Origin: Dehalococcoidia bacterium
GTDB lineage: Bacteria; Chloroflexota; Dehalococcoidia; GIF9; AB-539-J10
Assembly: GCA_030611085.1 (NCBI GenBank)
Contig: JAUWQI010000016.1
Location: forward strand, 1-33,477
DNA: 33,477 nucleotides
Direction: 5' to 3'
Shown here in pieces: positions 2,205-23,579 of the stretch; positions within the stretch are counted from its first letter, which is position 1, and each line of letters begins with the position of its first letter. The translations under genes were made by a program, and so were the position numbers. The notes beneath the pieces were generated by a model that saw nothing but the letters and a program-made list of their open reading frames with translations, was not told where the DNA came from and did no database searches.

Positions 2205-2257
2205 TGTAGTTGCCTGATTCATCAGGCTCTTATGGCCCAATAAATTGGGCAACTACA
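2205..2257. repeat. Composite palindromic element with two inner hairpins
   Basis: TGTAGTTGCC at 2205-2214 pairs with GGCAACTACA at 2248-2257. Inside lie two perfect hairpins, GCCTGATTCATCAGGC (2212-2227) and GCCCAATAAATTGGGC (2235-2250). As RNA or single-stranded DNA it could form a three-way junction. The left arm and first hairpin recur at 4991-5012 inside the TreT-like gene, so it is a dispersed family and not a local terminator, although a run of T follows it. Confidence 0.8.
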
Positions 2258-2372: not shown

Positions 2373-2456
2373 TTGTCATTCTGAGTGAGTAAAACGAACG
2401 AAGAATCTCCTCACGCAGGTATATGTCGATTCTTCGCCTTCGGCTCAGAATGACAC
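2373..2456. repeat. Inverted-repeat element of the GTCATTCTGAG...CTCAGAATGAC type
   Basis: GTCATTCTGAG at 2375-2385 is the exact inverse of CTCAGAATGAC at 2444-2454, with inner GAAGAATC and GATTCTTC arms continuing the pairing around a central spacer. This type of extragenic palindrome is widespread in environmental bacterial genomes. A degenerate half copy lies in frame within purH at 23096-23130. Position between genes suggests a non-autonomous mobile or structural repeat. Confidence 0.8.
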
Positions 2457-4976: not shown

Positions 4977-6398
4977 ATGAAAAGTGAAAGTAGTTGCCCG
5001 ATTTATCGGGCTGATAAAGGTGAGACCCAGAAGAATTTTCCTCTGGAGGATGGCACGGTATATAGCCGAAGGAAAGGATTTCAACCCTTTAGCGCACCTC
5101 CTATAGAGGATTATGTTCCTATAGTGGGTGAAGAAAAGATAGAGGAGCTACGGAAGCTTGCAGCAAAACTCAAAGGGGTAAAAATACTGGAGGTTAACTC
5201 GACAGCAATGGGTGGTGGTGTAGCCGAGATGCTTTATTCCCAGGTGCCGTTTGTAAACCAGTTGGGATTAGAGGATGAGTGGAAAGTTGTACGTGGTACG
5301 GAGCCATTTTATCAGGTGACTAAAACCATTCACAACCTGTTGCAAGGTAAGAAGGGCACTCTTACCCCCGACATGATAGAGGTTTACCATCATACTCAAA
5401 GGGAGACCGCGGACATCTACCTTGAGGATCACAATAGGTATAAGCCAGATATAGAAATTGTACACGACCCGCAGCCTCTCGGCCTGGCTCAGTACTTGAA
5501 AAGACCGAATGAGAAATGGCTGTGGAGGTGCCATATTGACATAGAGGGAGACACCCTGAAAGCCAATCCTGCGTTATGGGAATTCATCACCTTTTGGGCA
5601 GATTTTTATGATGCTGTCGTCTTCTCCGGTGCTCATTATGTGGTAGAGCAATGGCCTTTACAGAAATTTATCATTCCTCCCTTCATCGACCCTCTCTCAG
5701 CAAAGAACAAGGAGTTAAGCTCTGGTGAGATTGCCAAAGTACTAGACAAGTATGGAATAGACCATAATGTCCCTTTATTGGCTCAGATAGGCAGGTTTGA
5801 CCCCTGGAAGGGAATTGATACCACTATCAAGGCATATAGAATTGCCAGGAGAGAGGTAAATTGTCAACTGGTAATAGCTGGTGGCATGGCTTCGGACGAC
5901 CCTGAAGGAGGGGCAATCTTTAACCGAATTCTTGAGGATACGAAAGAGGATGCTGATATTCATGTTATTAGCCTTCCTGAAGATGTGCAAGTTAGTGCTT
6001 TAGAGGTCAATGCATTACAACGAGCGGCAAGAATAATCCTGCAGCCCTCTATTAAGGAAGGATTTGGATTGGTTATTACCGAAGCTATGTGGAAGGGTAA
6101 GCCGGTGATAACCAGGGAAGTAGGGGCAATTCCTATTCAAGTTAGGGGTGGTGAAACTGGCTTCTTTATCACCTCCGCCAAAAAAGCAGCAACAAGGATT
6201 ATTCGCTTGTTGGAAGACTCAGATATGGCAAAATCAGTAGGGGAAAAAGCACACAGCTATGTCAAGGAACATTTTCTCATGCCTGACAGGGTGGCCGATT
6301 ACTTGAGAACTTTCGACTATTTCATCAATGACGAATTGGACAAGAACTCTATAATCAGCTATCACCCCTGGTTCAAACTTAGCAAAAGGAAAGGTTAG
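4977..6398 (+). CDS. treT: TreT-type trehalose glycosyltransferring synthase (GT4)
   Basis: The 473-residue protein matches retaining GT4 enzymes that make trehalose directly from NDP-glucose and glucose. From residue 45 it shows E-D-Y-V-P-I-V-G, then L-E-V-N-S-T-A-M-G-G-G-V-A-E-M at 71-85, the donor-site segment G-R-F-D-P-W-K-G-I in the C-terminal Rossmann domain, and E-G-F-G-L-V-I-T-E-A-M with the expected acidic pair. TreT homologues usually begin close to E-D-Y-V-P, so about 40 residues are extra. Codons 6-12 (S-C-P-I-Y-R-A) are encoded by a hairpin repeat at 4991-5012. No in-frame ATG or TTG lies between the tracked start and the conserved core, and the first GTG would cut into it, so translation through the repeat is likely. 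It gives the cell a second trehalose route beside OtsAB. Confidence 0.82.
   Translation: MKSESSCPIYRADKGETQKNFPLEDGTVYSRRKGFQPFSAPPIEDYVPIVGEEKIEELRKLAAKLKGVKILEVNSTAMGGGVAEMLYSQVPFVNQLGLEDEWKVVRGTEPFYQVTKTIHNLLQGKKGTLTPDMIEVYHHTQRETADIYLEDHNRYKPDIEIVHDPQPLGLAQYLKRPNEKWLWRCHIDIEGDTLKANPALWEFITFWADFYDAVVFSGAHYVVEQWPLQKFIIPPFIDPLSAKNKELSSGEIAKVLDKYGIDHNVPLLAQIGRFDPWKGIDTTIKAYRIARREVNCQLVIAGGMASDDPEGGAIFNRILEDTKEDADIHVISLPEDVQVSALEVNALQRAARIILQPSIKEGFGLVITEAMWKGKPVITREVGAIPIQVRGGETGFFITSAKKAATRIIRLLEDSDMAKSVGEKAHSYVKEHFLMPDRVADYLRTFDYFINDELDKNSIISYHPWFKLSKRKG
4991..5012 (+). repeat. Half copy of the composite palindrome, inside treT
   Basis: TAGTTGCCCGATTTATCGGGC carries the left arm and first hairpin (GCCCGA-TTTA-TCGGGC) of the element at 2205-2257; the second hairpin and closing arm are absent. 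It lies in frame near the start of the TreT-like coding sequence. Confidence 0.75.
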
Positions 6399-22043: not shown

Positions 22044-23579
22044 ATGCGCACTATAATTAGTGTTTCAAATAAATCAGGCGTAGCTGATTTCGCTCACGGC
22101 TTGCAAGAGCTGGGCATTGAAGTATTTAGCACCGGGGGTACCAAGAAGTCGCTAGAGATTGCTGGAGCAAAAGTCCGTAGCATCTCAGAACTCACTGGCT
22201 TCCCCGAGATTCTCGATGGCAGAGTAAAGACCCTGCACCCTGCAGTCCACGGCGGCATTCTGGCGAGACGAGATTTGCCTCAGCATCTGGCCGAGCTAGC
22301 CCAAAATCATATTGAGACTATTGATATGGTTGTAGTGAACCTTTATCCCTTCGTTGAGACAGTAACCCGAGGCGATGTTTCCTTAGACAAGGCGTTAGAG
22401 AACATCGACATTGGTGGCCCAACTATGATTCGCTCAGCAGCTAAAAATTTTCCTTCCGTCCTGGTAATAGTCGACCCTGAGGATTATGACCTGATTTTGT
22501 CACAACTACGTCAGGGTGACATAGCTCTAAAAGAAAGAAAAAGGTTAGCTCAAAAGGCTTTTCAGCATGTGGCTATCTACGATACCGCCATTGCGCAGTA
22601 TCTTAACGAAGAAAGCTTTCCCGAAGAAATGACTATAGCTTTGAAGAAAAGCCACAGCCTTCGCTATGGAGAGAATCCTCATCAGCAAGCTGCCCTTTAC
22701 ATTGAACAAAATGTAAAACAAGCACAAAATGGCTTAACTTCGCTTAAGCATCTCAATGGTCCTGAGATTTCCTTTAACAACCTGCTTGATTTCGATGCCG
22801 CTCTAAATATGCTCGGTAATTTCACTGCTCCCACAGTGGCTATAATGAAGCATACTAACTCATGCGGGCTTGCCAGCCATGATAGTTTAGCCGAAGCTTA
22901 TCGAAGAGCTCTAACCGGAGACCCGCTGGCCTCTTTCGGCGGCGTGGTTGCCAGCAACCAGACTATTGATTTAGCCACGGCAGAGGAGATAAATAAGACC
23001 CATTATGATGCCATCATTGCCCCAAAATACGAAAAGGAGGCTCTAGAATTACTGAAGCGCAAGAAGAGTTTACGCCTGGTTGAAGTTCCCCTCCCTCGTC
23101 ATTCTGAACACGGTGAAGAATCCCACCTCGACTTCCGCCATGTCAAGGGATGCTTCTTAGCACAAACATTAGATTTCTTCACCGAATCGGAGCTTGCTCC
23201 TCGCACAGTCACCAATCGCCAGCCTACCCAAGCGGAGCTATCAAACTTACTCTTCGCCTGGAAGACAGTTAAAGGCATAAAATCCAATGCCATAGTTATC
23301 GTTAAGGACAAAACATTATTGGGTATGGGGGCAGGACAGCCCTCTCGCGTGGTAAGCGTAGAGCTAGCTTTGAAAAGAGCTGGAGATGAAGCTAAAGACA
23401 GTGTCCTTGCCTCAGACGCCTTCTTCCCCTTCACTGACGGCCCTGAATTAGCAATCAAAAACGGCGTTACCGCCATTATCCAGCCCGGCGGCTCTGTAAG
23501 AGATAAAGAGGTAATTGATATGGCAAATCAATATAATATAGCTATGGTATTTACTGGCGTGCGCCATTTCAGACACTGA
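22044..23579 (+). CDS. purH: Bifunctional AICAR transformylase / IMP cyclohydrolase
   Basis: The 511-residue protein carries the last two purine steps. Residues 1-about 130 form the IMP cyclohydrolase (MGS-like) domain with S-N-K-S-G, S-T-G-G-T and D-G-R-V-K-T-L-H-P. The AICAR transformylase part follows, with R-Y-G-E-N-P-H-Q and the catalytic K-H-T-N-S-C-G-L. Near residue 352-364, between L-R-L-V-E-V-P and D-F-R-H-V-K-G, lies an extra stretch (L-P-R-H-S-E-H-G-E-E-S-H-L) encoded by a repeat half-element at 23096-23130. It keeps the frame, so the protein should still be made. GGGGG precedes the ATG, ten bases after purM. Confidence 0.95.
   Translation: MRTIISVSNKSGVADFAHGLQELGIEVFSTGGTKKSLEIAGAKVRSISELTGFPEILDGRVKTLHPAVHGGILARRDLPQHLAELAQNHIETIDMVVVNLYPFVETVTRGDVSLDKALENIDIGGPTMIRSAAKNFPSVLVIVDPEDYDLILSQLRQGDIALKERKRLAQKAFQHVAIYDTAIAQYLNEESFPEEMTIALKKSHSLRYGENPHQQAALYIEQNVKQAQNGLTSLKHLNGPEISFNNLLDFDAALNMLGNFTAPTVAIMKHTNSCGLASHDSLAEAYRRALTGDPLASFGGVVASNQTIDLATAEEINKTHYDAIIAPKYEKEALELLKRKKSLRLVEVPLPRHSEHGEESHLDFRHVKGCFLAQTLDFFTESELAPRTVTNRQPTQAELSNLLFAWKTVKGIKSNAIVIVKDKTLLGMGAGQPSRVVSVELALKRAGDEAKDSVLASDAFFPFTDGPELAIKNGVTAIIQPGGSVRDKEVIDMANQYNIAMVFTGVRHFRH
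23096..23130 (+). repeat. In-frame half copy of the GTCATTCTGA element inside purH
   Basis: CGTCATTCTGA at about 23098-23108 followed by GTGAAGAATCCCACC matches the left half of the inverted-repeat element at 2373-2456 (GTCATTCTGA...GAAGAATCTCC). It adds about a dozen codons at a loop between conserved purH blocks. Confidence 0.7.

Follow-up and report, generated by a model that had tools for sequence, protein, structure and literature searches.

An in-frame REP-like repeat unit in the purH gene of a Dehalococcoidia bacterium and the history of the PurH loop among its relatives

The purH gene and its repeat unit

The window analysed here is a stretch of 33,477 nucleotides from the draft genome of an uncultured Dehalococcoidia bacterium (contig JAUWQI010000016.1). 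The features of interest are collected in Table 1. The purH gene, which codes for an essential enzyme of purine synthesis, is an intact ORF of 511 codons, and its product scored 612 bits against the NCBIfam purH equivalog TIGR00355, for which the cut-off is 528. The repeat unit inside purH is GTCATTCTGAACACGGTGAAGAATC. Compared with the main 25-bp consensus of its family, it carries five substitutions, all in the middle of the unit. It has C before GTC and CCCACC as its tail. Folding of the purH copy gave a best structure that differs from the modular hairpin of the consensus units.

Structure modelling (AlphaFold, 31 sequences, mean pLDDT of 73) placed the nine repeat-read residues in a low-confidence coil (352-378), shortly past the strand 344-347. 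The sequence-only reading had raised the question of a surface loop. The predicted coil fits a loop, with surface exposure not proven because the neighbouring conserved residues are also poorly modelled.

Table 1. Positions of purH, of the repeat copies and of related features in the window
Feature	Position	Strand	Basis
purH, bifunctional AICAR formyltransferase/IMP cyclohydrolase (host gene)	22044..23579	+	Intact ORF; NCBIfam purH and PRK00881 equivalogs; Pfam AICARFT_IMPCHas and MGS
Complete 25-bp unit of the dispersed CGTC/TGTC-tagged REP-like repeat, inside purH	23098..23122	+	One of 118 genomic copies; tag base C at 23097
Nine repeat-read codons, RHSEHGEES, PurH residues 352-360	23097..23123	+	Translation; alignment with the PurH of relatives
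Left unit of intergenic facing pair, 33-bp class length	2375..2407	+	Pattern match; length class
Right unit of intergenic facing pair, 27-bp class	2428..2454	-	Pattern match; length class
GTAG-tagged REP copy (GTAGTTGCCCAATTTATTGGGC and variants)	2206-2227	+	Pattern with up to 2 mismatches
GTAG-tagged REP copy (GTAGTTGCCCAATTTATTGGGC and variants)	2235-2256	-	Pattern with up to 2 mismatches
GTAG-tagged REP copy (GTAGTTGCCCAATTTATTGGGC and variants)	4990-5011	+	Pattern with up to 2 mismatches

Architecture of the repeat family

A search of the 1.16 Mb draft genome (83% complete) with the pattern GTCATTCTGA-N4-20-GAAGAATC returned 118 copies on both strands, and the reversed-pattern control returned none. 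About 0.0006 chance matches to the pattern would be expected in the whole genome. The purH segment was identified as a unit of a dispersed repeat because of these 118 copies against a control of 0. The proposal that a palindromic repeat lies in frame within purH was borne out.

For the copy census, 98 of the 118 genomic copies were taken as genome stretches. Their units fall into classes of 33 bp (39 copies), 25 bp (35), 29 bp (9), 27 bp (8), and a few others. The purH segment had been described as a fragment of an extragenic palindrome; it is instead a complete unit of the 25-bp class. All classes share the layout yGTC-ATTCT-GA-inner arm-loop-inner arm-GA-AGAAT-C. The inner arms vary by class and remain complementary (GC/GC, GCC/GGC, GCCC/GGGC, and GG..GC/GC..CC). 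In the 25-bp class, one inner-arm pair is always complementary, as G-C in 31 copies and as A-T in 4, a result matched by 0 of 500 shuffles. No independent evidence comes from the outer arms or the two outer GA dinucleotides, since the search pattern itself prescribes them. Folding showed that the consensus units form a modular hairpin, in which the stem opens with A and T pairs: ATTCT/AGAAT arms (preset by the search pattern), a GA/GA mismatch, an inner arm of 2-4 bp, and a loop of 3. Before GTC, 93 of the 98 copies have T, 4 have C, and 1 has G. Most units have the tail CTC, with any of the four bases after it.

Close pairs of units always face each other (9 of 9), with the tags outward. Two such complete units, facing each other, make up the inverted repeat at 2373-2456 (Table 1); they fold as a single long hairpin (z = -3.7). 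The purH copy therefore matches both halves of this inverted repeat; the match to the left half reported earlier is real, but it is not specific to that half.

The exact pattern was found in 58 of the 301 Chloroflexota genomes sampled, with a patchy distribution. The density in the host genome, about 102 copies per Mb, is the highest listed among them. Another of these genomes, G189, contains 465 copies in 6.6 Mb.

Repeat copies inside other genes

The best-known examples of in-frame palindromic repeats come from Rickettsia, and their consequences for the proteins there are not settled. In the studied genome, 21 of the 98 copies are located well within ORFs of at least 200 aa. Two N-terminal copies, which might be start-site artefacts (Gmk and a nucleoside hydrolase), and two copies in spurious-looking ORFs (L074 10146 and L096 1175) were set aside. 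This leaves 17 copies in 16 conserved genes, which answers the suggestion to count in-frame copies genome-wide. The host genes encode PolA, RecG, PcrA, HypF, PurH, a phosphohexomutase, a DnaC-like ATPase, a DUF2851 protein, MtaB (two copies), CarA, HisC, BirA, PyrK, PurC, TruA, and a radical SAM protein. Among the 17 copies, 12 are read as CHSERSEES / CHSEGAKRPKNL, 3 as DSSVASLPQND, and 2 as VILSEAKNL. The first of these frames is the most hydrophilic, with a GRAVY of about -2. Of positions drawn at random from the same DNA, 65% lie within ORFs of at least 200 aa, compared with 21 of 98 for the repeat; the copies are therefore underrepresented in genes overall, which would be expected if most genic insertions are lost.

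The presence or absence of the repeat in relatives was checked for two further host genes, MtaB and PurC. The MtaB of the studied genome (loci L109 and L136) carries two copies, and the second one (about residues 213-247, about 24-35 aa) is absent from all 14 aligned relatives. The repeat-like peptide LNEVKNL is found in the PurC of the studied genome, G006, G033, and G015. Other repeat-like inserts are present at this site in several more genomes, and G001 and G018 have short loops. The repeat-derived peptides of PurC at residues ~80-97 thus differ by genus, with LNEVKNL in four genomes and IARAESPKQSQ-like peptides elsewhere (loci L116-L131). The PurC matches in G013 and G014 (L123 and L129) contain in-frame TAG stops within the matched stretch. 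These could be pseudogenes or assembly errors, or the match could end beyond the gene.

The PurH loop across relatives

PurH was compared in 30 and then 44 sequences, with Dehalococcoidia MAGs as the nearest named relatives. The variable loop sits between KKSLRL and DFRHV and occurs in 10 or more different forms. Loops without a recognisable repeat have 13 aa in groups g4, g5, and g8, and 15-16 aa in g9. In the other families of the order the loop has 12-15 aa, also without a recognisable repeat. The alignment showed a shorter loop in the PurH of Mycobacterium tuberculosis, from which the repeat segment is absent. An ancestral segment shared with distant PurH proteins, the outcome that would have spoken against a repeat, was thus not found in these families or in M. 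tuberculosis.

The loop of the studied genome has 17 aa, VEVPLPRHSEHGEESHL. Loops of 17 aa are also present in G001, G015, and G025 (g2) and in G011 (g12), where they contain recognisable REP-like DNA in the identical place and frame. The G015 copy, TGTTATTCTGAGCGAAGCAAAGAGTC, matches the consensus at 22 of 25 positions. In G005 (g6) the loop reaches 25 aa and holds one unit nested in an older decayed one; the inner unit, GTCATTCTGAGCGTAGCGAAGAATC, matches a common variant at all 25 positions. G019 and G027, which are close relatives of G005, hold an unrelated palindrome, GCTATCAGCTGACAGCTATCAG, in the loop, and a few similar copies of it are present in those genomes. G014 (g15) has a 13-aa loop, but a reversed repeat (DSSVASLPQND) at PurH residue ~156 adds about 25 aa. 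The orientation, position, and frame of the loop copy are identical across all PurH carriers. The repeat-encoded residues themselves drift (HSEHGEES, HFEHGEEP, YSERSKES, and HSEKNEES). One gene thus offers a series of states, from no repeat through decayed, fresh and nested, and replaced by another repeat to a second-site hit, which is readable across about 40 related genomes and in a phylum other than that of Rickettsia.

In the PurH tree G005 pairs with G027, yet these closely related g6 genes hold different repeats at one loop; intragenic recombination or rapid replacement could account for this.

About nine residues of the loop are encoded by the repeat, and the net growth in the studied genome is about 4 residues over the shortest loops. 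The earlier estimate that the segment adds roughly a dozen residues was too high, the loop having 17 aa compared with 13-16 aa in relatives of the family that lack a recognisable repeat. So small a net gain means either that the event was more complex than a clean addition of the unit or that the loop lost residues as well. Moreover, the g9 loops end in SESHL or similar, so that the last few right-arm bases could predate the repeat. As a test case for repeat-driven protein growth, purH is a modest example. The second MtaB insert and the insert at residue ~156 of the G014 PurH are cleaner cases.

Origin of the repeat-derived residues

Taken together, these comparisons make it very probable that the purH segment is a complete REP-like unit, which entered the formyltransferase half in frame, at a loop that tolerates changes in length, and was then inherited as nine coding residues. 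The insertion would date to an ancestor of either the studied genus alone or a few related genera. Copies might arrive by some replicative or copy-transfer process. Selection would then eliminate any copy that closes the frame or disturbs the fold; this may be why the readings that survive at loops are hydrophilic and free of stops. The proposed likeness to the Rickettsia palindromic elements (RPEs), as an element placed in a housekeeping gene at a tolerant site, largely held, given the varying loop length and the 17 copies in conserved genes.

A fast-evolving PurH loop might also come to resemble the repeat by chance. The loop is free in length and sequence, and part of the right arm (the ES codons) is also present in the g9 loops. 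However, all 18 fixed bases of the pattern match exactly, and other genes show comparable in-frame copies. Repeat DNA is present at precisely this site in independent relatives, as a perfect unit in G005, and the copies in G005 and G015 refute a chance resemblance for practical purposes. We consider it extremely improbable.

The inserted residues might instead have been recruited, so that the peptide now serves PurH (e.g., in stability or partner contact) and is kept by selection. Such a role would suit the g2 genomes, which have only 0-1 exact genomic copies yet retain a recognisable repeat-derived peptide in PurH, and in the case of G015 also in PurC (LNEVKNL). On the other hand, the repeat occurs in unrelated host genes, in several frames and on both strands, the PurH residues drift among carriers, and two g6 relatives have replaced the peptide. 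The third-position identity to G011 is 0.55 over the repeat codons of purH, no higher than the 0.55 over the rest of the gene. Recruitment is therefore very unlikely, and the repeat-encoded residues most likely carry no function themselves. The same equality of third-position identities gives no support to gene conversion as a process keeping the PurH copy fresh.

Number of gains in PurH

A single ancestral insertion, as preferred above, is compatible with the PurH tree, which is poorly resolved at depth: a constraint uniting g1, g2, g6, and g12 was not rejected (AU p = 0.28). The unusual middle GAACAYGGTGAAGAA is common to the studied genome and G001, and points to a common ancestry of these two copies. 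The decayed unit retained in the PurH of the g2 genomes may be regarded as a fossil of the repeat. Later events also occurred in the loop, at least one in G005, together with one replacement in G019/G027 (or the reverse).

Such later events could also mean that the loop is a hot spot hit repeatedly, and that the copy of the studied genome is its own insertion rather than the product of one ancestral event. The nested second unit in G005 and the unrelated palindrome at the identical place in G019 and G027 fit repeated hits, and PurC has a comparable multi-repeat site. In addition, the unit middle in G001 (AC..GT type) differs from that of its close relatives G015 and G025 (GC..GC type), and the studied genome is not grouped with g2 and g12 in the PurH tree. 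The shared middle, the uniform orientation, position, and frame of all carriers, and the constraint result argue against it. We regard independent insertion as a serious possibility that falls somewhat short of an even chance.

Relationship to known repeats and search for a mover

The CGTC-tagged REP superfamily includes Rickettsia RPE-4 and RPE-6, has no dedicated transposase found, and was reported mostly from alpha-Proteobacteria (Di Nocera et al. 2013, PMC3733652). Its members were described as four families with an 8-9 bp stem starting with A-T pairs, a loop of 4-5, and a CCA-fitting tail (PMC3733652). The repeat studied here shares the short palindromic units, the unpaired CGTC/TGTC tag, the facing pairs, and some intragenic copies, and no dedicated transposase was found for it either. 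The first two pairs of its stem are A-T, in arms that the search pattern had preset. It differs in the conserved GA/GA mismatches that interrupt the stem, compared with the unbroken 8-9 bp stem described, in the CTC-like tail instead of CCA, and in its host, a member of the Dehalococcoidia. The repeat is near the CGTC-tagged REPs, compared by description and not by consensus letters, and is termed CGTC/TGTC-tagged and REP-like. It was not placed in one of the four families because the interrupted stem and the tail deviate from the description.

RPEs were about 150 bp as first reported (Ogata et al. 2000, 2002, as cited in PMC3733652 and PMC10969869). As far as they are described in these citing papers, the repeat resembles them as a dispersed palindromic element that lies in frame in unrelated conserved genes, in several frames and both orientations, and for which the same gene is found with and without the element among relatives (PurH, PurC, and MtaB alignments). 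It also shares a CGTC-type tag with RPE-4 and RPE-6 (theirs is CGTC), a likeness of layout. On the same descriptions, it differs from RPEs in a unit of 25-33 bp (longer with flanks) instead of about 150 bp, and in lying outside the Rickettsia lineage. An NCBIfam scan of PurH up to E = 1 returned no palindromic-element model.

The RAYT-type transposase domain Y1_Tnp (PF01797) had no match in the studied genome (83% complete), unlike the situation of RAYT-mobilised REPs and REPINs. Y1_Tnp is present in 11 of 52 family genomes, and its presence does not track the repeat copy number. In the two genomes where its surroundings were looked at, one repeat lies about 1 kb away in G005 and none is nearby in G027. 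With no Y1_Tnp match in a genome 83% complete and no correlation across the family, a RAYT was rejected as the mover.

In the open-access literature, no earlier report was found for the repeat sequence, for its peptide, or for palindromic repeats of Dehalococcoidia. The type of event is already known from intragenic REPs and RPEs; the lineage and the comparative series appear to be new within this literature.

GTAG-tagged and sister repeats in the same genome

The same genome contains a GTAG-tagged REP family, GTAGTTGCCCAATTTATTGGGC, with 136 genomic copies (up to 2 mismatches; control 0). It resembles the TGTC family in having a similar copy number and in forming facing pairs. The TGTC family differs from it in the tag and in its placement: only 1 of 53 GTAG copies lies inside ORFs of 200 aa or more, compared with 21 of 98 TGTC copies (Fisher p = 0.0006), in stretches that had been picked for their TGTC copies. 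Stop codons within the unit explain at most part of this contrast, since 4 of 6 frames are stop-free in the TGTC unit, and 4 of 6 and 3 of 6 in the two main GTAG variants. The remainder may reflect peptide chemistry or insertion preference. With two REP families side by side, the genome offers its own controlled comparison of why one repeat enters genes and another stays out.

A broader proposal can be made from these comparisons. Two REP super-families would behave in opposite ways in one genome, the TGTC-tagged one repeatedly entering genes and being kept as peptide, and the GTAG-tagged one being kept out. Loops of core enzymes (PurH ~350 and PurC 80-97) would serve as landing pads, which are filled, nested, and overwritten over evolutionary time, leaving repeat-derived peptides in lineages such as g2 that have lost nearly all genomic copies. 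Taken jointly, we hold these statements to be evenly balanced between true and false.

The GTAG copy at 4990 sits just inside the predicted start of ORF 4977-6398, and the true start of this ORF may lie downstream. A sister repeat with ATTGC stems, GTCATTGCGA..GCAATC, was also observed, with at least 15 copies in the stretches examined. It is likewise found inside conserved genes, such as those for HypF and PyrK, where it adjoins copies of the ATTCT family (L012 1254 and L004 1245).
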